NCBI RefSeq assembly: GCF_900091855.1
Contig: NZ_FMCH01000353.1
Location: 1 to 32,331 of the forward strand
From: Streptomyces sp. DvalAA-14
GTDB taxonomy: Bacteria; Actinomycetota; Actinomycetes; Streptomycetales; Streptomycetaceae
DNA length: 32,331 nt
Reading direction: 5' to 3'
Position numbers and translations under genes: made by a program. The notes below the pieces were generated by a model, which saw only the letters and a program-made list of their open reading frames with translations, did no database searches and was not told the DNA's origin. Within the stretch, counting starts at the first letter, position 1. Every line of letters starts with the position of its first letter. This document shows, piece after piece, positions 8,158-24,926 of this stretch.

Positions 8158-8967
8158 TCAGACGTTGAGTTTGAGGCTGGAGACGAAGAACCGCTGGGCG
8201 AGGAAGAAGACGACCACCGTGGGCAGCGACACCACCAGCGCGCCGGCCAGCACCACCGGCGGACCTACGTTGGAGTAGTTGCCCTGCAGATCGGCCAGGG
8301 CGGCCATCACCGGCCGGATGTTGCGGCTGGTGGCCAGCGTGATGCCGAAGAGCAGGTCGTTCCAGACCGCGACGAACTGGAAAACGAAGGCGGCGACCAT
8401 CGCGGACTTCGACAGCGGCACGTAGATGCTCCGGAACAGCCGCCACCACGACGCGCCGTCCAGCCGGGCCGCCTCGATCACCTCCGGCGGCAAGGTGGCG
8501 GCGAAGTTCCGCAGCACGAAGAAGGCGAACGGGATGGCGATCGCAATGTAGATGATCACCATGCCGATCTGGGTGTCGTACAGCCCGGTGTTGGCGTAGG
8601 CCAGGAAGAGCGGCCGCAGGAAGACCTGGAGCGGCAGCAGGGTGCCGGCGTAGATCAGCCAGAACCACAGCGCCCGGCGCCGGACCGGCATGATCGCGGC
8701 GGCGAAGGCGGCCAGCGACGCCAGCAGCACCGCGCCGGCCGAGCTGACCACCGCGTAGTACAGGCTGTTGGCCATGGCCGGACCGAGGTCCGCCAGATTC
8801 CAGGCCGCCTTGATGTTGTCGAACAGGCCGAAGTTGTTCGGGTACCAGCGGGGGCTGCCCGAGTAGGCGCCGACCGAGGTGAGCCCGTTGACCAGCAGCA
8901 GATAGGTGGGCACGAACCACAGCAGCGCCACCAGCAGGACCACGCTGTTCCGGACGACTCTGCTCAT
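8158..8967 (-). CDS. ABC sugar transporter permease 2 (MalG-type)
   Basis: This 269-residue inner-membrane permease has about six transmembrane helices, starting with the hydrophobic stretch VVLLVALLWFVPTYLLLVNG. The cytoplasmic EAA loop, EAARLDGASWWRLFRSIYVP, is the contact site for the ATPase. It belongs to the carbohydrate uptake (CUT1) class, where two different permeases pair. The ATG at 8965-8967 is one base away from the stop of permease 1, so the two are translationally coupled. No ATPase gene is present in the operon; CUT1 systems of streptomycetes usually share one ATPase (MsiK). From context the substrate is probably manno-oligosaccharides. Confidence 0.92.
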   Translation of the reverse strand: MSRVVRNSVVLLVALLWFVPTYLLLVNGLTSVGAYSGSPRWYPNNFGLFDNIKAAWNLADLGPAMANSLYYAVVSSAGAVLLASLAAFAAAIMPVRRRALWFWLIYAGTLLPLQVFLRPLFLAYANTGLYDTQIGMVIIYIAIAIPFAFFVLRNFAATLPPEVIEAARLDGASWWRLFRSIYVPLSKSAMVAAFVFQFVAVWNDLLFGITLATSRNIRPVMAALADLQGNYSNVGPPVVLAGALVVSLPTVVVFFLAQRFFVSSLKLNV

Positions 8968-8968
8968 G

Positions 8969-9922
8969 TCACACCTTGCCCTGGGTCGGCAGCTGGCGGC
9001 GCAGGTACGTCCACGACGCCAGCAGCACGATGATCGTCAGCAGTACGGCGATGGCGGCGCCAGCGCCGGGCCGCAGGAAGAGGAACGTCTCCTGGTACAT
9101 GGACACCGCCAGCGTCTCGGTGGCCCGGCCCGGACCGCCCTGGGTGAGGACGAAGATCAGGTCGAACGCCTTGAGACCGTTCACCAGGCTCATCCCGATC
9201 ACGATGATCGACACCGGCCGCAGCTGCGGCAGGACGATGTACCGGAACCGGGCCCAGGAGCCGGCGCCGTCCAGCGCCGCGGCCTCCAGGGTGTCCGGCG
9301 GGATGCCCTGCAGACCGACCATGAAGAGGATCACCGCGACCCCGGTGGCCTGCCACGAGCTGGCGATGATCATCACGATGGTGTTCCCCGGCCAGTCGAG
9401 CAGCCAGTTGCCGGCCAGAGAGCCCAGATGCAGGCCCCGGAGCGCTCCGTTCACCGCCCCGTCGCTGGTGAGCATGAAGTTCCACACCACCGCGACCGCC
9501 GAACCGGAGATCGCGTACGGGATGGTCACCGCGAGCCGGGCCGCGCGGCTCCACCGGGTGGCGTTGGTGAGCATCGCGATCACCAGGCCCATCCCGGTGG
9601 GCAGCACGATCGCGCCGACCACCCACATCAGCGTGTTCTCCAGGGACCGCAGCAGATTGGGGTCGGTGAAGTAGTCGCGGTAGTTGGCCAGGCCGTTGGC
9701 GGTGGAGTGCGCGTAGTCGCTGAAGAAGCTGCGGTAGAGCGTGTAGCAGAAGGGCGCCAGCAGCACCACCACGACCATGATCGCGGCCGGCAGCAGGAAG
9801 CCGCCCGCCATCAGCCGCTCCCGCCACCGCGCCGCGGCCCGCCGCCCGGTGGCCGGCGGCGTCCCCCGGGCGCCGGACGGCGGTGTGCGCCGGCCCCGGA
9901 CCGAATCGGTGGTCACACTCAT
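8969..9922 (-). CDS. ABC sugar transporter permease 1 (MalF-type)
   Basis: This 317-residue permease has a basic, proline-rich N-terminal tail (about 35 residues) followed by six predicted helices. The EAA motif reads EAAALDGAGSWARFRYIVLP. The frame stays open far upstream, but the ATG at 9920-9922 overlaps the TGA of the binding-protein gene as ATGA, which is the natural coupled start and gives a normal length. It forms the translocation channel with the 8158-8967 product and receives substrate from the lipoprotein encoded just upstream. The substrate assignment rests on the flanking mannanase and mannosidase genes. Confidence 0.92.
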   Translation of the reverse strand: MSVTTDSVRGRRTPPSGARGTPPATGRRAAARWRERLMAGGFLLPAAIMVVVVLLAPFCYTLYRSFFSDYAHSTANGLANYRDYFTDPNLLRSLENTLMWVVGAIVLPTGMGLVIAMLTNATRWSRAARLAVTIPYAISGSAVAVVWNFMLTSDGAVNGALRGLHLGSLAGNWLLDWPGNTIVMIIASSWQATGVAVILFMVGLQGIPPDTLEAAALDGAGSWARFRYIVLPQLRPVSIIVIGMSLVNGLKAFDLIFVLTQGGPGRATETLAVSMYQETFLFLRPGAGAAIAVLLTIIVLLASWTYLRRQLPTQGKV

Positions 9923-11256
9923 GAGCCGCCCTTCCGCCAGATGTCCCATTCCTGGTCCGCGCGCTTTTGCATCGAGCCGAGCGTGGAGCGGATCGCGGTG
10001 GGATGGATCATGAAATTGCCCAGGTCGAGGATGTTGCCCTGGATGAGATTGGGCGGACTGGCCTCGTTGTAGCGGGTCAGCAGCGTCCGCCGGTTGCGCC
10101 GGATGTCCTGCTGCACGGCTTCGATCACCGGATTGGCCGCCGACACGGTCGGGTTGGCGGAACTGTCCTGCAGGAAGTCCGACCACACCCGCTGCACACG
10201 CGGGTCGAGCCAGTTGGAGACGGCCGCGACGCCGCCGGCGTGGTCCGCCGCCCGCTTCGGGACCGCGAAGACACCCGACTCGGCGATCACCGACGCCTTG
10301 GTGCCGGCGTGCACGGTCGGCATGATGAACGCGCCGTAGTCGACACCGGGCCGCAGGCCGGCCGCGGCGATGGCGGCCGACTCCCAGCTGCCGTGCAGGA
10401 ACATCGCCAGCTTGCCGGCCTTCATCTGCGCGGGGCCGTTGGCGCCGTCGAAGTCCGGCGCGGTCATCCAGCCCTTGGCGTAGAAGTCCCGCCAGATGGT
10501 CATCGCCTCGGTGGCGGTCTCGTCGGTGTACTTGGCCCGGCCGGTCACCAGCCGGGTGTAGAAGTCCGGGTCCAGCTTGCTGACCAGTTCCTGGAACCAC
10601 TCGAAGGCCGGCCAGACACCGTTCTGGGTGGCGAGGAACGGGGTCACGCCGTTCTTCTTCAGCACCTCGGCGTTGTGGGTGAACTCCGCCCAGCTGGCCG
10701 GCTCGCGCAGCCCGTACCGGGTGAACACCGGCTTGGCGTAGAAGAAGACGTACGACGACTGGTAGAGCGGGATGCCGTAGACCCCGCCGTCGAAGGTGAC
10801 GGCAGGCTTCAGCTCGGGGGCGACCCAGCCGCGCCCCACCGCCGCGTCCCAGACCGCGCCGAGCTCGGTGAGCCCGCCGGAGCGGGCCAGGGAGTAGAGC
10901 GGATAGCCGGACGCCCACTTGACGACGTCGGCGGCGCGGCTGGTCTGCACCGAGGTCTGGACCACCTCCTGGTACGAGGTGGTGGACGCGTTCGACAGCG
11001 GGCGCAGGTCGAAACCGCACAGCCGCTTCAGCACCGCCCCGGCCTTCTCGTACCCGTCCGACCAGGTGGCGTTGTCGTTGTAGAGGTTCACCGCGCCGGG
11101 CACGCTCGTGGTGGAACTGCCGCGGGCGCAGCCGGCCAGTGCCGCGGCGACCGTGAGGCCGCCGAGACCGGCGAGCAGCCGGCGCCGGGTGGGACCGTCT
11201 GAGGGGGTCGTCGAGCCGTCGGGCTCGGCCCCGTGATCAGTGCGGCCAGGTTCCAT
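9919..11256 (-). CDS. Tat-exported lipoprotein sugar-binding protein of ABC transporter
   Basis: This 445-residue extracellular solute-binding protein is the first gene of the mannan-uptake operon. Its N-terminus has a twin-arginine motif (TRRRLLAGLGG, residues 23-33), a hydrophobic core and a lipobox ALAGC with Cys43 as the lipidated residue, so it should be Tat-exported and anchored on the outer face of the membrane. The mature part has features of CUT1 family 1 binding proteins, such as AGKLAMFLHGSWE and KWASGYPLYSLARSGGL. The ATG at 11254-11256 is preceded by an AAGGA-type site. A strong candidate promoter with an overlapping operator lies 65-92 bases upstream. Manno-oligosaccharide specificity is inferred from the operon partners. 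Confidence 0.92.
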   Translation of the reverse strand: MEPGRTDHGAEPDGSTTPSDGPTRRRLLAGLGGLTVAAALAGCARGSSTTSVPGAVNLYNDNATWSDGYEKAGAVLKRLCGFDLRPLSNASTTSYQEVVQTSVQTSRAADVVKWASGYPLYSLARSGGLTELGAVWDAAVGRGWVAPELKPAVTFDGGVYGIPLYQSSYVFFYAKPVFTRYGLREPASWAEFTHNAEVLKKNGVTPFLATQNGVWPAFEWFQELVSKLDPDFYTRLVTGRAKYTDETATEAMTIWRDFYAKGWMTAPDFDGANGPAQMKAGKLAMFLHGSWESAAIAAAGLRPGVDYGAFIMPTVHAGTKASVIAESGVFAVPKRAADHAGGVAAVSNWLDPRVQRVWSDFLQDSSANPTVSAANPVIEAVQQDIRRNRRTLLTRYNEASPPNLIQGNILDLGNFMIHPTAIRSTLGSMQKRADQEWDIWRKGGS

Positions 11257-11319
11257 CGACCTGTCCTTCCGTCATGTGCGCCCCGGCCGGAAATGGCGAT
11301 GGGATGCACGGCCGCCTTG

Positions 11320-11348
11320 ACGGTAACGGTAACAAGAGAGGGTGACAA
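11320..11348 (-). promoter_or_regulatory. Candidate promoter of the transporter operon
   Basis: On the minus strand TTGTCA (11348-11343) and TACCGT (11325-11320) are separated by exactly 17 bases, a good sigma70-type promoter for the operon starting at 11256. The palindrome at 11321-11334 overlaps the -10 box and the downstream half of the spacer, so a bound repressor would exclude RNA polymerase. Confidence 0.6.
11321..11334. promoter_or_regulatory. LacI-type operator, site A
   Basis: CGGTAACGGTAACA has the central A-n-CG-n-T of LacI/GalR operators and matches the TGNNANCGNTNNCA pattern with one end mismatch. It shares the core GGTAnCGnTA with sites B (11434-11447) and C (11985-11998). It lies inside the predicted promoter of the minus-strand operon. 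The LacI protein encoded at 14261-15295 is the obvious candidate ligand, by proximity only. Confidence 0.55.
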
Positions 11349-11433
11349 GGGTTCATCTGCTGGAAATCTGAAAGTGCCCTGTGTGATGGTGCCCTCAGCG
11401 CGATCGGGCGGAACATCGGCCGATCGCGCGATA

Positions 11434-11447
11434 CGGTACCGATACCG
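11434..11447. promoter_or_regulatory. LacI-type operator, site B
   Basis: CGGTACCGATACCG reads CGGTATCGGTACCG on the other strand, a palindrome of the form GGTAnCGnTACC. It lies 65 bases before the GTG start of the plus-strand isomerase gene, a position suited to controlling the plus-strand operon. I could not place an unambiguous -35/-10 pair around it. Confidence 0.5.
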
Positions 11448-11511
11448 AATGCTGGTCGGGAACGCCGGGCAGCACCGGGAAACAGCTTCCGGAACGACGA
11501 AAGGTGACCCC

Positions 11512-13275
11512 GTGCACCAGGACGGCAGCGGCCTGCCCTATCAGCCGAACCCGCGCTACGAAGCCGCCGGGGCGCCGGTCCTGCGCGGCTGGGCGGCGGC
11601 CCTGGCCGCGTTGGGGGAGCGGACGCGCGTGCTGGCCGTGGACGGGCCCTGGGCGCTGGACTGGGACGGCGTAGGCGCGGCGCTGTCGGCCGCGTTGCCC
11701 GGCCGGGTGCTGCTGGACATGCGCCGCCACCTGGCACCCTGGCCGGAGATCGAGGCCCGCACCGAGTCCGGTGCGCTGGTCGGCGACCCGCACTTCGCCG
11801 CCCTGTCGCAGGCGTCGCTCGCCGACTTCTTCGCCGAACTGCCCGCCGTGGACCCAGAGGACGCCGTGGACGCCGCAGCCGGCGGCCCGACCGTGGTGTA
11901 CGGCCCGGGCGCCGCACTGGTCGGGCACGACACCCTCTGGTACGCGGACCTGCCCAAGCGCTACGCCGAAGCGGCGGTCTCCGCCGGTACCGTTACCAAT
12001 CTCGGGCAGCGGCCGGCCGACGGTACGGCCGGCACCCGCCGGCTCTTCTACATCGACTGGCCGGTGCTCGACCGGCACCGCGACGGCCTGGCCGGCCGGA
12101 TCGACCGCTGGCTCGACCTCCAGGACCCGGCCGCCCCGGCGTCACTCGACGGGGACACGCTGCGGGCCACCGCCGCGCGACTGGCCCGCCGCCCCTTCCG
12201 CACCCGACCGACCTTCAACACCACACCGTGGGGCGGCCAGTGGGCCCGCCGCGAACTCGGCCACAACCCCGACGGCCCGAACACCGCGCTCGGCTACGAA
12301 CTGATCGCACCCGAGTCCGGCATCCTGATCGGCGGCGGCCCGGCGGGCGACGACGGCACCGGCCCGGAAGACGGTGCCGACACCCCCCAGATCGAGCTGC
12401 CGTTCCAGCTGCTGGTCGCCCTGCACCCCGAACTCGTCCTCGGACCAAGGGTGCACGACCTGTTCGGTGCCTCCTTCCCCATCCGCTTCGACTACCTCGA
12501 CACGGTGCGCGGCGGCAACCTCTCGGTCCACTGCCACCCGCGGCCCCAGTACATGAAGGACGTCTTCGGCTGGTCCTACACCCAGCACGAGACGTACTAC
12601 ATGATGGTGGGCAGCGAGCAGAACACCGTCTTCCTGGGCCTGCGCGGCGACGCCGACGTGGCCGAGTTCCACCGCCGCGCGCACGACGCCGACACGTCCG
12701 GCACCGCCTTCCCGATCGAGCGGTTCGTGCAGACCTTCCCGGCCACCCCGCATCAGCTCTTCCTCATCCCCGGCGGCACTCCGCACGGCAGCGGCGCGGG
12801 CAACGTGGTGCTGGAAGTCAGCGCCACCCCCTACCTGTACTCGCTGCGGTTCTACGACTGGCTGCGCCGCGACGCCCGGGACCGGCAGCGGGCCGTCCAC
12901 GTCGAGCACGCCTTCCGCAACCTCGACACCGACCGCACCGGCGAGGCCGTCGGCCGTGACCTCGTCCAGTCGCCCCGGGCGCTGCGCGCGGGCGACGGCT
13001 GGAGCGAAGAGGTGCTCGGGCAGCTGCCGGAGATGTTCTTCACCGTCAACCGGCTCGTCGTGCAGGGCCAGGCCGTCGCCCCGGACGCCACCGACGGACG
13101 CTTCCATGTGATCAACGTGGTCGAGGGGGAGGGCGTCCGGGTGCGGACCGAGGCCGGGGACGAGCACCGGGTGGGATACGCCGAGACGCTGGTGATCCCG
13201 GCCGCGGTGGGCGGATACACCGTCACCGGCCTCGGCCCCGGCGGGAGCCGGGTCATCAAGGCGTTCGTGAAGTGA
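11512..13275 (+). CDS. Class I mannose-6-phosphate isomerase-like protein with extra N-terminal domain
   Basis: This 587-residue protein is about 200 residues longer than ordinary class I mannose-6-phosphate isomerases. The GTG at 11512 is chosen for the GAAAGGTG site just upstream and because earlier sequence in the open frame is intergenic and carries operator B. Residues 1 to about 220 include RVLAVDGPWALDWDGVGAAL, which resembles the start of a uridine-kinase-like P-loop fold but lacks the Walker A GxxGxGKS/T. From about 225 it looks like an isomerase: FNTTPWGGQW, then zinc-site candidates His340 and His342 (SVHCHP), Glu360 (QHETYYMM) and His425 (PHGSG). The expected reaction is mannose-6-phosphate to fructose-6-phosphate in the cytoplasm. 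It is followed by a ROK kinase overlapping as GTGA, so kinase and isomerase would be made together. Isomerase activity is inferred from motifs and context. Confidence 0.8.
   Translation: MHQDGSGLPYQPNPRYEAAGAPVLRGWAAALAALGERTRVLAVDGPWALDWDGVGAALSAALPGRVLLDMRRHLAPWPEIEARTESGALVGDPHFAALSQASLADFFAELPAVDPEDAVDAAAGGPTVVYGPGAALVGHDTLWYADLPKRYAEAAVSAGTVTNLGQRPADGTAGTRRLFYIDWPVLDRHRDGLAGRIDRWLDLQDPAAPASLDGDTLRATAARLARRPFRTRPTFNTTPWGGQWARRELGHNPDGPNTALGYELIAPESGILIGGGPAGDDGTGPEDGADTPQIELPFQLLVALHPELVLGPRVHDLFGASFPIRFDYLDTVRGGNLSVHCHPRPQYMKDVFGWSYTQHETYYMMVGSEQNTVFLGLRGDADVAEFHRRAHDADTSGTAFPIERFVQTFPATPHQLFLIPGGTPHGSGAGNVVLEVSATPYLYSLRFYDWLRRDARDRQRAVHVEHAFRNLDTDRTGEAVGRDLVQSPRALRAGDGWSEEVLGQLPEMFFTVNRLVVQGQAVAPDATDGRFHVINVVEGEGVRVRTEAGDEHRVGYAETLVIPAAVGGYTVTGLGPGGSRVIKAFVK
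11985..11998. promoter_or_regulatory. LacI-type operator, site C (inside the isomerase gene)
   Basis: CGGTACCGTTACCA reads TGGTAACGGTACCG on the minus strand. It is a near-perfect member of the GGTAnCGnTACC set and fits TGNNANCGNTNNCA except at the last base. It lies about 550 bases from site B, within coding sequence (codons near 158-163 of the isomerase), where an auxiliary operator could support looping. A chance occurrence is possible. Confidence 0.4.
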
Positions 13276-19988: not shown

Positions 19989-20375
19989 TCAGCCGATCGC
20001 GCGGCTGACCGCCTCACGCAGCCGGTCGGCCGCCACGGCGAGCGCGGTGACCGAGGACAGTGCGGCGGTCAGGCGTCCGAGGATCCGGGCGATCCGGCCG
20101 GGATCGGGCTCCGGGGCGGCGAGCTGGTCGGTGACCTCCGCCAATTCGCCCCGGGCGCGGGCCCGGTCCTCGTCGGTGAGGTCCGAGCCGTGTTCGGCCA
20201 GCAGGGCGCGCAGCGCGTCCAGGGCCTGCTGGGGGGTGAGTTCACCCGCCGAGGGCGAAGGCCCGGGCGCCCCGCCGCGGGCCTGCGCGCCGTCCCCGAC
20301 CGCGATCGGCCCCGAGTTGTCGATCCGGCCGCTGCCGGTTTGATGGATGCCGGTGTTCCGGTTGCCGCCACTCAT
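19989..20375 (-). CDS. Small protein with N-terminal amyloid-like motif and helical C-terminus
   Basis: This 128-residue soluble protein has two parts. Residues 7-33 (NTGIHQTGSGRIDNSGP followed by IAVGDGAQAR) are Gly/Asn/Gln/Ser-rich and match the C-terminal tail of the protein encoded just upstream. Residues 45-128 are predicted largely helical (PQQALDALRALLAEHGSDLT, RARARGELAEVTDQL, then an Ala-rich amphipathic end) and may oligomerise. From memory it resembles small streptomycete proteins of unknown function that carry the same NSGPIAVG-type head. The shared motif resembles RHIM/PP-like bacterial amyloid signalling motifs, where an N-terminal copy on one protein templates a copy on a partner. 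The gene lies 37 bases downstream of that partner. No catalytic residues are visible. Confidence 0.8.
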   Translation of the reverse strand: MSGGNRNTGIHQTGSGRIDNSGPIAVGDGAQARGGAPGPSPSAGELTPQQALDALRALLAEHGSDLTDEDRARARGELAEVTDQLAAPEPDPGRIARILGRLTAALSSVTALAVAADRLREAVSRAIG

Positions 20376-20412
20376 GTCCGCTGACTCCTCTCGGGCCCGT
20401 CCGGGCCGCGGG

Positions 20413-21828
20413 TCATGACGCCCTTGCCTGTGAACCGGCCGCCACCGCGGCCGAGTTGACTATGGTCCCGCTGCCGGTCTGCAGGATCCCTATGTTGAGC
20501 GCGTTCTGCTGGGCCCGGTACTCGGTGGTGTCGACGTGGTGGTCCTCCAGGAAGTCGAGGATCACCTCGAAGGTCCGCCGCTCGATGATCTTGATGAACT
20601 TCTCGTCGTCCATCTGCTGGAAGAAGTGCAGGTAGGCGCCGGAAGCCATCTCCCGCACGCTTCTGCGGGCCCCCCAGTCGATGTAGTCCGGCTCCTCCTT
20701 CGGATCGAGCGCGGTCGTGGCGGCCGTCGCGGTGCGCAGGTCCTTGCGGTTCCACAGGGCCTTCGCGATGGCCAGCGGCCAGGCCAGCGCCCACAGCGCG
20801 CCGCCGAGCAGACCCGCGGCCGATTCCAGCGCCACCCGGCCGGCGAGCCTGCGCACTTCGGCCCCGTTCAGCCGCCGCTGGCGGTCCGCCTCGTGGTAGG
20901 CCGACTTGATCGGCATCAGGTGGTAGCCGTGGAACTGGGTGTAGATCATGCGGCCCTTGAGGTCGACGTTCAAGAACACCGACGTCACGAGTTCCTGCGA
21001 CCACGAGCCGACCCGCACGCACAGGTACTCGCGGGCCGCGTTGTAGTGGTCGGGGACCTCACCGGCCGCCTGCTGGTATTCCGCGAGGCGGTCGGCCGGG
21101 ACGGGCGCCCGGCTGCCGAGGGCCTTGGCGTAGAAGCAGCGCGAGACTTCCAGGCCCCTCAATCGCTGGCCGTGGGCCGCTACTTCGTCCAGCAGCGAGG
21201 ACCGCAGCCGCTGCTCCATGTACGCGGTGAGCTCATCGGCGGTGAACGGGTCGGGGTCCATGGCCCGGATACCGTCGGCGCCGTGGCCCGGCTCCTGCCG
21301 ATCGGCCACCGCGGACAACGGCGGCAGCAGCGACGTCCTGGCCCGCTCCAGCAGACAGGCGAACGACCAGCGGCGCACCGACTCGCCCGCGCCGATGAAC
21401 GGCACATAGCCGCCGTAGTACACGACGCCGACCGAACTGCTCTGGTCGGCACGGATCTTGTCGTAGAGGCCGGCGGGACCCGGCGCGGGCACGGGCGGGA
21501 CGCCGTCGAAGCCCTCGCCCGCCCGCCGGCTGCGGCGCAAGTGCACCGTGACGACCTGCCGTTCGAGAACAGCGGCCAGCAGGTTGACCGCCCACAGCGA
21601 CCACAGCGCCAGCACGGTGCTGACCCAGAAGCCCGTCGCGCCGTACACCCCGTCGCTCACCAGGATGCCGCCGAAGACGGCCCAGAGCACGACCACGACC
21701 ACCACGGCCGTGGTCCTGGCCCGGCGGCGACGGCGGGCGGCGAGCGCGTTGCCGAGCACGGTGGCGGCGTCGTAGCCGTACGAGGGGGCGGCGAACCGAT
21801 AGCTGTTGTTGACGAGTTCGTCGATCAC
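20413..21828 (-). CDS. Multi-pass membrane protein with C-terminal amyloid-like motif
   Basis: This is a readable frame of 471 residues from the GTG at 21828, but the true protein is probably about 524 residues and starts at the ATG at 21988, with a one-base frameshift in between. Two adjacent transmembrane helices (about 39-61 and 64-88) follow a basic RRRRRAR stretch, and a further hydrophobic region lies near 338-356. The large middle part (YYGGYVPFIGAGESVRRWSF onward) is of a type common in streptomycetes but of unknown function. Residues 400-440 form a charged helical segment. The last 27 residues contain NIGILQTGSGTIVNS, nearly identical to the start of the next gene product. The likely topology places the motif in the cytoplasm, where it could nucleate or recruit the 128-residue partner. 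I cannot assign an activity. Confidence 0.75.
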   Translation of the reverse strand: MIDELVNNSYRFAAPSYGYDAATVLGNALAARRRRRARTTAVVVVVVLWAVFGGILVSDGVYGATGFWVSTVLALWSLWAVNLLAAVLERQVVTVHLRRSRRAGEGFDGVPPVPAPGPAGLYDKIRADQSSSVGVVYYGGYVPFIGAGESVRRWSFACLLERARTSLLPPLSAVADRQEPGHGADGIRAMDPDPFTADELTAYMEQRLRSSLLDEVAAHGQRLRGLEVSRCFYAKALGSRAPVPADRLAEYQQAAGEVPDHYNAAREYLCVRVGSWSQELVTSVFLNVDLKGRMIYTQFHGYHLMPIKSAYHEADRQRRLNGAEVRRLAGRVALESAAGLLGGALWALAWPLAIAKALWNRKDLRTATAATTALDPKEEPDYIDWGARRSVREMASGAYLHFFQQMDDEKFIKIIERRTFEVILDFLEDHHVDTTEYRAQQNALNIGILQTGSGTIVNSAAVAAGSQARAS

Positions 21829-21988
21829 CTGATCGGCGTAGGCGGGGTCGGTCTGGACGCCGATGGACAGCAGGCGGGTGACCTCGCTGAGCGCCGGCGG
21901 CGTGGTCCCGGGCGGCGGGGCCGGGGGGAGTGTCGTTGTCGTCGTACGCCGGCGAACGGCGGATCTGCGGCTGGGGGTCGAAGGTCAT
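21829..21988 (-). other. Out-of-frame 5' part of the 20413-21828 gene
   Basis: The ATG at 21988 has a GGGAG site nine bases upstream and begins MTFDPQPQIRRSPAYDDNDT, which is protein-like. After a run of six C (minus strand; G6 at 21923-21928 on the plus strand) that frame degenerates. The next frame then reads ALSEVTRLLSIGVQTDPAY and runs straight into the 21828 frame with no start codon of its own. Removing one C would fuse the two parts into one protein. This is either a sequencing error, a real mutation or a phase-variable tract. Confidence 0.6.
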
Positions 21989-22038: not shown

Positions 22039-22815
22039 TCAGAACTCGTCGGGACTGCGGGTGGCCAGTCCGTACTGGGCCGCGATCGGGTTCCACGCGT
22101 CGACGAAGTCCGACTTGGCCTGCTGCGCCTTGGTGCTGTCCTTCCCGCCGGCCAGGAAGTCCCGCTGGCTCTGCGTGGTGCTCGGGGCGCAGTCGCCGCC
22201 GGCCAGTGCCTGGGCCCAGCGGGCGTAGTCGGCGTCGGCGTCGGCGGACCGGGACAGCGCGGTGCTGAGCAGGAGGGCCGCGTCCGGCCCACCGAGCACC
22301 GCGTCCATGCTCGCGTTCCCGGCCTGCTGGGCCAGCGAGGAGCGGGAGTCGGCGGCGTCCTGGAAGGCGGCGGCGTCGTCGCTCAGCCCGGCGCCGCACT
22401 GCTCGGCGTCGTTCACCGCCGCCGAGACCTTGGCGCGCGAATCGGCGGACTGCGTGATCAGCGCGTCCAGCGCGGCGGCCTCGGTCTGCCCGTCGTCGGT
22501 GGGCGAGGGAGTTCCGGGGTCCGGATCGGTGGTGGCGGTGTCGGTGGGCAGAAAGCCGCCGCTGCCGTCGTCGGTGCTGGTGTCGTACGGCGCGGGGTTG
22601 TAGCCGTCGCCGGGCCCCGCCGAACCCGAGGAGCCGCCCCACGTCCACGGATGGAACGCCAGCGTCAGGGCGAGCACGAGCGGTATGAGCAGTACCCGGT
22701 AGAGGCTGAGCCGGGCCCCGTGATCGATCCTGCTGAAAACGCCCCGGTTGTAGCCGGTGGGCTGGGCGCCCGGTGCGGGTAACCCCCCGCCCGCCGGGTC
22801 TTGTGTGCTGGTCAT
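22039..22815 (-). CDS. Single-pass membrane protein with exported Cys-containing domain
   Basis: This 258-residue protein starts at the ATG at 22815, with GGGGGAT upstream; the open frame extends further but is not protein-like. A short cytoplasmic proline/glycine-rich head is followed by one transmembrane helix (about residues 37-55, LYRVLLIPLVLALTLAF). Next comes a Thr/Asp/Pro/Ser-rich linker (about 75-110) and a helical, alanine-rich extracytoplasmic domain with two cysteines (EQCGAGL and GGDCAPS) that could form a disulfide. Family and function are unknown to me. It is the first gene of the minus-strand run and lies 50 bases before the ATG of the frameshifted membrane protein, so it may sense an external signal for that set. 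This role is inference from order and topology only. Confidence 0.75.
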   Translation of the reverse strand: MTSTQDPAGGGLPAPGAQPTGYNRGVFSRIDHGARLSLYRVLLIPLVLALTLAFHPWTWGGSSGSAGPGDGYNPAPYDTSTDDGSGGFLPTDTATTDPDPGTPSPTDDGQTEAAALDALITQSADSRAKVSAAVNDAEQCGAGLSDDAAAFQDAADSRSSLAQQAGNASMDAVLGGPDAALLLSTALSRSADADADYARWAQALAGGDCAPSTTQSQRDFLAGGKDSTKAQQAKSDFVDAWNPIAAQYGLATRSPDEF

Positions 22816-23000
22816 CAGCGATCCCCCCGATGTCGAGGGCCAAACCCTACTGAGAGCTTCCATCACGGACAGCCGGAACGCTGATATTTCGGCCCTGCCG
22901 GTCATAAAGATACGCTGCGGTCGCACGGTTGCCCCTGCTGGGCGGGCCGCCTGCGGCGCGGTCCGGTCCGGATCGGCCGTGGCGGAACTCCGGTGGCGGC

Positions 23001-23072
23001 GGCCCGTTCAGTGCCGGTGGCCCGTTCAGTGGCGCCGGCCCGTTCAGTGGCGCCGGCCCGTTCAGTGGCGCC
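23001..23072. repeat. 18-bp tandem repeat (four units) at the 3' end of the HxlR gene
   Basis: Four head-to-tail units of GGCCCGTTCAGTGGCGCC occupy 23001-23018 (diverged at its end), 23019-23036, 23037-23054 and 23055-23072. The last three are identical. The array begins inside the final codons of the HxlR gene, whose TGA stop is supplied by the TTCA of the last unit, and continues into the gap. It is a minisatellite-like array whose copy number could vary. Confidence 0.9.
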
Positions 23073-23523
23073 GGCCCGGGCCCGGCGTCCCGGCGGCGTC
23101 GTAGGCCTCCCGGGCTTTTTCGACCCGGGCCAGGTTGGCCTGCGACCAGTCGTTGAGCGTGGCGAACAGCGGGGAAAGGCTCCGGCCGAGCTCGCTGATC
23201 TCGTACTCCACCCGCGGCGGCACTTCCTGGTAGTAGGTGCGGACGACGAGACCGTCGCGTTCCATCTGCCGCAACCGCTGGGTGAGCACTTTCGGCGTGA
23301 TGGTGCCGATCAGCCGCTCCAACTCGACGAACCGCTGACGGCCGAACGTGTGCAGTGCCCACAGGATCGGCGTCGTCCAGCGGCTGAACACGATGTCCAC
23401 CACCGGTCCGATCGGGCAGGCCTGTTCGGGTCGCACCGCCGTCCGGGCGGCAGCTTCGGAACGCCCCGGCCGTGCGGTTCGGGGCTCCGGTGATTCGGTC
23501 ACAGTTACTCCCGGGGAAGTCAC
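23062..23523 (-). CDS. HxlR-family winged-helix transcriptional regulator
   Basis: This 153-residue regulator, or 146 residues if it starts at the GTG at 23502, which has the better-spaced GGGAG site. The HxlR domain covers CPIGPVVDIVFSRWTTPILW, the recognition region LIGTITPKVLTQRLRQMERD, and the wing EVPPRVEYEISELGRSLSPL. The cysteine at the domain start is the conserved family Cys, often used for redox or electrophile sensing. It is divergent from a truncated MFS transporter gene, the typical arrangement for an HxlR repressor of an efflux pump, with the palindrome TAGGTACCTA between them. Since the transporter is reduced to a stump, the regulator may have lost its local target. Its stop codon lies in an 18-bp minisatellite. 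Confidence 0.88.
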   Translation of the reverse strand: MTSPGVTVTESPEPRTARPGRSEAAARTAVRPEQACPIGPVVDIVFSRWTTPILWALHTFGRQRFVELERLIGTITPKVLTQRLRQMERDGLVVRTYYQEVPPRVEYEISELGRSLSPLFATLNDWSQANLARVEKAREAYDAAGTPGPGRRH

Positions 23524-24518: not shown

Positions 24519-24926
24519 TCAGTGGTTGGCGACGCCGTTGCCGGACAGCACCGGGACGTCGTCGACCAGGTGGGAGAGCGGCTCGTCGCCCTTGGCCTGG
24601 GTGGAGTTCTCGGCGCACTGCTGGTTCTGCGGCGAGGACAGGACCTGGATGTCCTGCGCTGTGACCGGGATCAGGATGCCGACCAGCGAGCCGACGTTCG
24701 CCTTGACGGGGACACCGGCGCACAGCTTGTTGAGCGAACCCTGCACCAGGCCGACCTGCGGGCTGAGTTCACCGCCGGTGACCGTGTTGCCGTACGCCTG
24801 GGTGGAGCCGTTGCCGTTGGCGGTGGTGATCCCCTCGTCGTTGCCGATCGCGGAGGCGGCGCCGGCGCCGCCGACAACTACCGCCGCGGCCAGCCCGCAA
24901 GCCGTCAGGGCATTGCTGATACGCAT
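24519..24926 (-). CDS. rdl: Rodlin (spore and aerial hypha surface protein)
   Basis: This 135-residue secreted protein begins at the ATG at 24926, with GGGAGAG close upstream. The signal peptide is about residues 1-26 (cleavage after GAASA). The mature part starts IGNDEGITTANGNGSTQAYGN and contains LSPQVGLVQGSLNKLC, INVL-type text (DIQVLSSPQNQQCAEN) and STQAKGDEPLSHLVDDVPVL. All of these are signatures of RdlA/RdlB rodlins, which assemble with chaplins into the rodlet layer on aerial hyphae and spores. Two mature cysteines are present. Rodlins often occur as a divergent rdlA/rdlB pair next to chaplin genes; here there is one copy and no chaplin in the window. Expression is expected during aerial growth. 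Which paralogue it represents cannot be decided. Confidence 0.93.
   Translation of the reverse strand: MRISNALTACGLAAAVVVGGAGAASAIGNDEGITTANGNGSTQAYGNTVTGGELSPQVGLVQGSLNKLCAGVPVKANVGSLVGILIPVTAQDIQVLSSPQNQQCAENSTQAKGDEPLSHLVDDVPVLSGNGVANH

Follow-up and report, generated by a model that had tools for sequence, protein, structure and literature searches.

Bacterial amyloid signalling sequences (BASS) were reportedly described by Dyrka et al. in 2020 in pairs of Bell and NLR genes. According to parts of two papers, BASS and HET-s motifs hand an amyloid fold from one product of adjacent genes to the other (PMC7889193, PMC8086366), and in these pairs the C-terminal motif is located on a membrane-active effector and the N-terminal motif on a receptor (PMC7889193). 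For CAP12 TIR-STING, PMC9402430 states that the NADase activity of the TIR domain requires filament assembly. A 2021 review raises the question whether fungi and bacteria have signalling amyloids that act independently of NLRs (PMC7889193). The gene pairs described here fit best with a paired-motif layout that is already known but contains new elements: a membrane protein without an NLR, partners of the DUF5955 and CAP12-TIR families and a link to Macro-domain genes. No prior report of such a membrane protein, of these partners or of the Macro link was found in the open-access literature.

The window analysed here is one entire contig of 32,331 bases from the 7.94 Mb draft genome of Streptomyces sp. 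DvalAA-14. On its minus strand, the gene of a single-pass membrane protein (22039-22815) is followed by a gene encoding the membrane protein of interest (20413-21828) and by the gene of a 128 amino acid protein (19989-20375), which is referred to as the partner. The last 27 residues of the membrane protein form the motif NIGILQTGSGTIVNSAAVAAGSQARAS (20416-20496, minus strand), and residues 7 to 33 of the partner form the motif NTGIHQTGSGRIDNSGPIAVGDGAQAR (20277-20357, minus strand); translation confirmed both positions given in the original prediction. The prediction had also claimed a high identity between one C-terminal and one N-terminal copy, and this holds: tail and head align with a score of 67 and 15 identities over 26 aligned residues, which is the best local alignment between both proteins, and shuffled tails had a mean score of 21.4 and a maximum of 40, with none of 5000 shuffles reaching 67. 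When the draft genome was searched with the tail, the partner was the top non-self match (E 0.0104); two further listed matches, with E-values of 0.68 and 2.24, fall in reading frames that appear non-coding by eye. The idea that the motif is common to further proteins of the genome, for example an NLR, was rejected, since only the protein itself, the partner and two chance matches were recovered. Asn and Gln residues are few in the window motif, and the partner copy is disordered and of low confidence in an AlphaFold2 model. A rodlin gene (24519-24926, minus strand; NCBIfam NF041022, E 4.3e-53) is located about 3 kb from the pair, and no link between them is shown; rodlin is a surface amyloid known from streptomycetes. 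The window further contains a short tandem repeat in coding DNA (22847-23156), which reads PFSGAGPFSGAG in one frame and NGPAPLNGPAPL on the opposite strand.

The membrane protein has 471 amino acids as called and comprises a pair of hydrophobic segments, TTAVVVVVVLWAVFGGILV and FWVSTVLALWSLWAVNLLA, together with a large region predicted to be cytosolic and the C-terminal motif. Based on the two N-terminal hydrophobic segments and their flanking charges, the tail is predicted to be cytosolic as well. The ORF as called starts too late: the open frame and homology extend upstream to 21984, and the probable true 5' part of the gene covers 21829-21988 (minus strand), with homology of the relatives starting at 21879 at least. 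A frame slip of 1 nt near a run of C at 21921-21934 (minus strand), which could be an assembly error or a real change, is probable because the likely start codon, an ATG at 21988, is out of frame with the rest of the gene. The protein has no match in Pfam, PDB or PADLOC and only a sub-threshold match to the NCBIfam SCO2097 family (15 of 110 bits), and its assignment to a known family was rejected on these results. Scattered weak Pfam matches were obtained for the cores of 23 related membrane proteins, the best of which had an E-value of 0.0035 and none of which was convincing. The structure model of the window protein has a mean pLDDT of 37.8 and is unusable. A second locus of the same genome (L002) encodes a paralogous membrane protein with 32% identity, whose C-terminus reads NHGVLQQGGLSVVGNQAVG, and the next gene encodes a DUF5955-type protein starting with NHGFQVLGGQVRIGNQAVG; the layout is thus that of the window, with a different yet matching motif.

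The membrane protein is present in 22 of 35 genomes of the genus (E 1e-10). A profile of the 23 cores, built from an alignment (A1) that lacks most of the tail, matches 240 of 297 genomes of the family at E 1e-15, which does not give the number of matched pairs because remote paralogues with another tail are included; across a sample of the phylum, the same profile matches 15 of 396 genomes, 12 of which belong to the same family. From the better-scoring matches of the genus and family searches, with weaker ones left out, 139 loci were parsed, of which one (L045) duplicates another (L007), leaving 138 distinct loci, nearly all from Streptomycetaceae. Two loci outside the family (L171, L172) also contain matched pairs, whose motifs are again different and which score 74 and 76; no matched pair was found at L178 or at L170, which lies near a contig end.

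Rather than homologues in which the motifs fail to co-vary or to be adjacent, which would have spoken against a pair, the reverse was found across the 138 distinct loci. The tail scored above 40 against the N-terminus encoded by the next gene in 133 of them, using slightly longer segments than for the background pairs and the best of several ORFs. In 21 neighbourhoods, the membrane-partner pairs scored 46 or more (mean 83.7) versus a maximum of 40 among 130 other adjacent gene pairs on the same strand. Taking the longest ORF as partner was abandoned: because alternative frames remain open in GC-rich DNA, this choice recovered the motif-best ORF at only 69 of 139 loci, compared with 128 of 139 for choice by codon usage. 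With codon usage as the sole criterion, the same ORF was obtained in 127 of the 138 distinct loci, and the score exceeded 40 in 125 of them. The five loci at or below 40 comprise L036 and L055, whose partner matches weakly, L047, where a tail motif is present without a partner directly downstream, and L144 and L146, which lack both the tail motif and the partner.

In permutation tests with codon-picked partners, own pairs scored 67.5 versus 33.3 for cores less than 80% identical (n=112), 67.4 versus 33.0 below 60% (n=57) and 69.9 versus 32.8 below 50% (n=34), with 0 of 5000 permutations reaching the observed value in each case. A control with a core segment was flat (z 0.4, 0.0 and -0.8 for the three cut-offs), and a control comparing the tail with the last 60 partner residues was weakly positive (z 3.1, 2.2 and 2.0). 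A swap test of 124 loci, binned by core identity, gave a higher score to the cognate than to the swapped partner in 4215 of 4219 locus pairs (20-30% identity), 1653 of 1672 (30-40%), 777 of 867 (40-50%) and 508 of 570 (50-60%), that is, in 1,285 of 1,437 pairs between 40 and 60%. The excess fades for closer cores (134/197 at 60-70%, 58/73 at 70-80%, 8/20 at 80-90%) because loci that close share a motif; for the same reason, namely that closely related loci share motifs, only 35 of 112 tails had their own partner at the top rank when redundancy was set at 80%. Tail and head similarity are correlated (Mantel r 0.684), and a modest partial correlation of 0.188 (0 of 2000 permutations) is left once core and partner-body similarity are allowed for; independent clustering of tails and heads agreed moderately (adjusted Rand 0.31-0.34). 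Among 18 TIR-type loci, mean identity is 72% for the TIR bodies, 52% for the membrane cores, 34% for the tails and 26% for the heads, and own tail-head pairs scored 98.7 versus 38.1 for swapped ones. It is well supported that the motifs differ greatly among loci yet match inside each locus. Chance, or a compositional artefact of Gly/Ala-rich termini, might be suspected for some of the motifs named here MSGGA-type, which are compositionally simple, and for L036, where the weak match lies in a low-complexity stretch; however, the shuffles, the background pairs and the far lower scores of swapped partners rule this explanation out and leave it a negligible probability.

Local duplication of DNA, or gene conversion, could also be the main force that maintains the likeness between two neighbouring stretches, and the likeness would then be without function. 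The same codon is used at 1233 of 1849 matched degenerate residues (0.667 versus 0.563 expected, z 9, and 0.561 in mismatched loci), and codon identity exceeds 85% in 13 of 122 pairs; in some pairs, the likeness is therefore partly due to local DNA copying. This does not apply to the window pair, which uses the same codon at 8 of 15 positions (8.9 expected, thus no excess) and shares 49 of 81 bases between the two 81-nt motif blocks. Functionless copying as the main cause is also hard to combine with the persistence of matching between loci whose cores are less than 50% identical and in the two loci outside the family, as well as with the joint absence of motif and partner in two loci, and we consider it very improbable.

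We favour, with a rough probability of 60%, the reading that the pair constitutes an NLR-free signalosome of the amyloid type, in which the two motifs would be the halves of a homotypic assembly switch and the membrane protein would nucleate the assembly of a cytosolic effector. Of the overall interpretation offered by the original prediction, the adjacency, the co-variation and the layout without an NLR were borne out, and the amyloid nature, the cross-seeding and the assignment of the sensor role are inferred. A different kind of assembly would be formed if the motifs were matched docking strands that close into a small, for instance trimeric, beta-roll or a small beta-solenoid and thereby give a specific and stable complex that is not amyloid. 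Many motifs, such as SGGAVATGSGAQAKH and STFAIGSHAHAESH, show an AxAxGxxAxA rhythm, which is known from the head rolls of trimeric adhesins, and every co-variation result would fit such a complex equally well. The Asn/Gly-rich motifs of the TIR-type loci (e.g., DNNNNSGTGNTMNTRTGGNRTSGANS), however, look like fungal sigma-type motifs as presented in part of PMC8086366, a resemblance only. Furthermore, one of the 20 fetched neighbourhoods (L197) contains, just upstream of its TIR-type operon (8544-12063, minus strand), what resembles a RHIM-like Bell/STAND-type pair: a protein of 167 amino acids ends with IGGDNIQIGSARDVRI, and a protein of 950 amino acids, which has weak STAND and TPR matches, starts with IGGHNIQIGDVTGDVAI; by eye, and again as resemblance only, this motif pair is similar to the RHIM-like BASS3 peptide in PMC8086366. 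Taken with these points, a closed beta-roll seems unlikely, though it has to be taken seriously.

The partner of the window consists of the motif followed by a four-helix bundle (helices 48-65, 68-86, 92-106 and 110-127). Past the motif, residues 49-125 (20001-20231, minus strand) match the DUF5955 domain (PF19380, E 1.5e-10, 41.8 bits versus a cut-off of 27.1), and the AlphaFold2 model shows a disordered head and four helices, with a pLDDT of at least 90 for 78 residues. A Pfam match to Metal_resist was below its cut-off and was set aside. Foldseek found no match to the bundle at E 0.001; VIA-align returned Z-scores of up to 10.8 against many unrelated helical bundles, scores that the tool itself warns against reading. 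MLKL-, HeLo- and RPW8-type folds were not among the structure matches listed for the bundle, which excludes nothing. When 135 partners were compared with Pfam (E 0.01), 33 matched DUF5955 and 18 matched CAP12-PCTIR_TIR; a sequence pattern counts 19 of the 135 as TIR-type. An iterated profile search starting from the window partner reached 111 of the 116 non-TIR partners, and 0 of 116 shuffled sequences passed the final profile. The 19-mer of highest hydrophobicity ends at most 12 residues from the C-terminus in 111 of these 116 small partners; its mean hydropathy reaches 1.6 in 51 of 116 and is 1.63 in the window partner.

These partner domains bear on the direction of signalling. If the signal ran in reverse, or if the partner were a regulator, the membrane protein would be the effector, for instance a pore or channel, and the DUF5955-type protein would sense or restrain it. 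Such an arrangement would agree with BASS and HET-s pairs, where the C-terminal motif sits on the membrane-active effector (PMC7889193, in part) and here sits on the membrane protein, and with the fact that no effector function is known for DUF5955. Against it stand the 19 of 135 partners that combine the N-terminal motif with a TIR domain of an effector family, and the hydrophobic 19-mer near the C-terminus of nearly all small partners, which would suit a membrane-acting effector; we regard the reverse direction as rather improbable.

The motif behaves as a modular tag. A DUF5955 paralogue elsewhere in the same genome (G000:C439, L159; 99.6 bits), which has another gene context, carries no visible motif, remote membrane paralogues (L173, L175, L179, L180, L181, L183, L186) have a conserved K/A-AD-(V/T)Y-(D/N)A tail in its place, and L144 and L146 are devoid of both tag and partner. 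The remote paralogues with this tail adjoin a gene that is HIT-type by eye.

The neighbourhood set comprises 20 fetched loci and the window, and seven of these are TIR-type. ThsA_Macro genes adjoin the pair in all seven (L197, L198-L203); each of these neighbourhoods contains a ThsA_Macro copy fused to a BTAD transcription activator, and four have a second, separate Macro gene. All 11 Macro genes form one cluster, to which the other 14 neighbourhoods, the window included, contribute no gene, and Pfam finds neither TIR nor Macro in the window pair. The BTAD-fused proteins are possible candidates for transcription factors that read the TIR product. The TIR-type relatives are thus similar to Thoeris with a TM-Macro ThsA, as described in part of PMC11204291, but differ from it in that their TIR domain is of the CAP12 type and bears a motif and that the Macro genes include BTAD-fused copies; the window pair itself does not consist of a TIR protein ThsB with an adjacent ThsA.

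A single-pass membrane protein of one family precedes the membrane gene in five of the seven TIR-type neighbourhoods. The product of the window gene at 22039-22815 (minus strand) has a large outer part and a hydrophobic segment at residues 36-54, a predicted transmembrane helix; it resembles the product of the upstream gene of a TIR-type relative weakly, over the transmembrane segment and linker (BLAST 33% over 84 amino acids), and the E-value of 2e-7 refers to a database of 12 sequences and a match that is partly of low complexity. It is likely the third gene of the system and a candidate sensor. In five non-TIR neighbourhoods (L206-L210), the second gene downstream encodes a single-pass protein that starts with W(N/D)xxxQxW, and in L144 and L146, where the partner is absent, a gene of this type directly follows the membrane gene. 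Near four small-partner loci (L207-L210), there is a gene that looks like malate dehydrogenase by eye (one sequence cluster); these loci appear to represent a conserved chromosomal place in which the motifs diversify.

Compared with the BASS Bell/NLR pairs, as far as the cited parts of the literature describe them, the family shares adjacent and often overlapping genes (the spacing between membrane gene and partner is -4 in 50 of 135 loci), a C-terminal motif that matches the N-terminus of the neighbour, as found in the 133 loci and in the swap test, and many unrelated-looking motif families in actinomycetes. Unlike in BASS, neither side is an NLR: STAND, NACHT and NB-ARC families were absent from the Pfam matches of the 23 membrane cores, the 135 partners and the window pair, which agrees with the earlier claim that a membrane protein takes the place of the NLR. 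Because the NLR (a STAND NTPase) is absent, the family does not belong to the Bell/NLR class. In addition, where a BASS pair has the C-terminal motif on a small helical Bell-type effector, the family has it on a membrane protein of about 500 residues. The matching N-terminal motif belongs to either a TIR domain or a DUF5955 bundle, so that the helical protein carries its motif at the other end.

Similarities to the fungal HET-s/NWD2, sigma and PP systems include the homotypic layout, a one-sided duplication of the motif in part of the family and the Asn/Gly-rich TIR-type motifs. The duplication was observed in MSGGA-type loci (L029-L034 and others), where the motif occurs twice in 17 of 29 partners and once in 28 of 29 tails, comparable to r1/r2 versus r0 of HET-s as described in part of PMC8086366. 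Unlike the fungal systems, the family lacks an NLR, is known from sequences alone and gave no Pfam match to an amyloid-motif family among the sequences scanned: the RHIM, HET-s, PP and sigma profiles, which are short and insensitive, found nothing in the 135 partners (E 0.01) or the window pair (E 1). With CAP12 TIR-STING, the TIR-type partners share the TIR family by Pfam, and the requirement for assembly described there (PMC9402430, in part) fits activation by assembly; they differ in that no STING domain was found by Pfam in 10 partners listed in full or in the tally of families over all 135 partners. EACC1, according to part of PMC7159879, is likewise a two-gene system, in which a constant component associated with the membrane lies upstream of an effector that varies, but that component is small, with a single transmembrane segment, and the effectors are of the caspase type, in contrast to the larger, unrelated membrane family and the motif-tagged DUF5955 or TIR partners. 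Neither EACC1 nor caspase families were detected in the window pair, the 23 membrane cores or the 135 partners, and the pair is thus not an EACC1 system.

For the amyloid-type signalosome, the following sequence of events can be proposed. The membrane protein, perhaps informed by the neighbouring single-pass protein with its outer domain, would respond to some cue and thereby expose or cluster its cytosolic C-terminal motif. The tail motif would then nucleate a beta-arch or beta-solenoid stack, which the N-terminal motif of the partner would join, and the C-terminal domain of the partner would thereby be drawn into the assembly and activated. In TIR-type loci, the output may be the cleavage of NAD+ or an ADP-ribose-type signal that the adjacent Macro-domain proteins would read; in the window, it may be the four-helix DUF5955 bundle with its hydrophobic C-terminal helix, which would plausibly act on the membrane. 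Since the motif sequence is particular to each locus, cross-talk between paralogous systems would be avoided. An extended version of this proposal, to which we give even odds, is an NLR-free, prion-like relay that starts at the cell envelope. The membrane protein would nucleate an amyloid with its cytosolic tail and so activate tagged effectors in the cytosol, namely either a TIR enzyme, whose product would be read by Thoeris-type Macro proteins that are in part fused to transcription regulators, or a four-helix bundle acting on the membrane. Its two motifs would co-diversify with the help of local gene conversion, which would keep paralogous relays insulated from one another.

DUF5955 was named in no paper of the open-access literature searched, and the proposed signalosome would give this domain a role; it would also connect immune modules of TIR and Macro proteins with a membrane family that has no known relatives. 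The family would make the question of NLR-independent signalling amyloids directly testable, would provide more than 100 natural co-varying motif pairs for work on specificity and would show how specificity survives while both partners change. Matched and co-changing tags in more than 100 gene pairs suggest that they may form part of a previously unrecognised route by which a signal at the membrane reaches an effector of the immune type.
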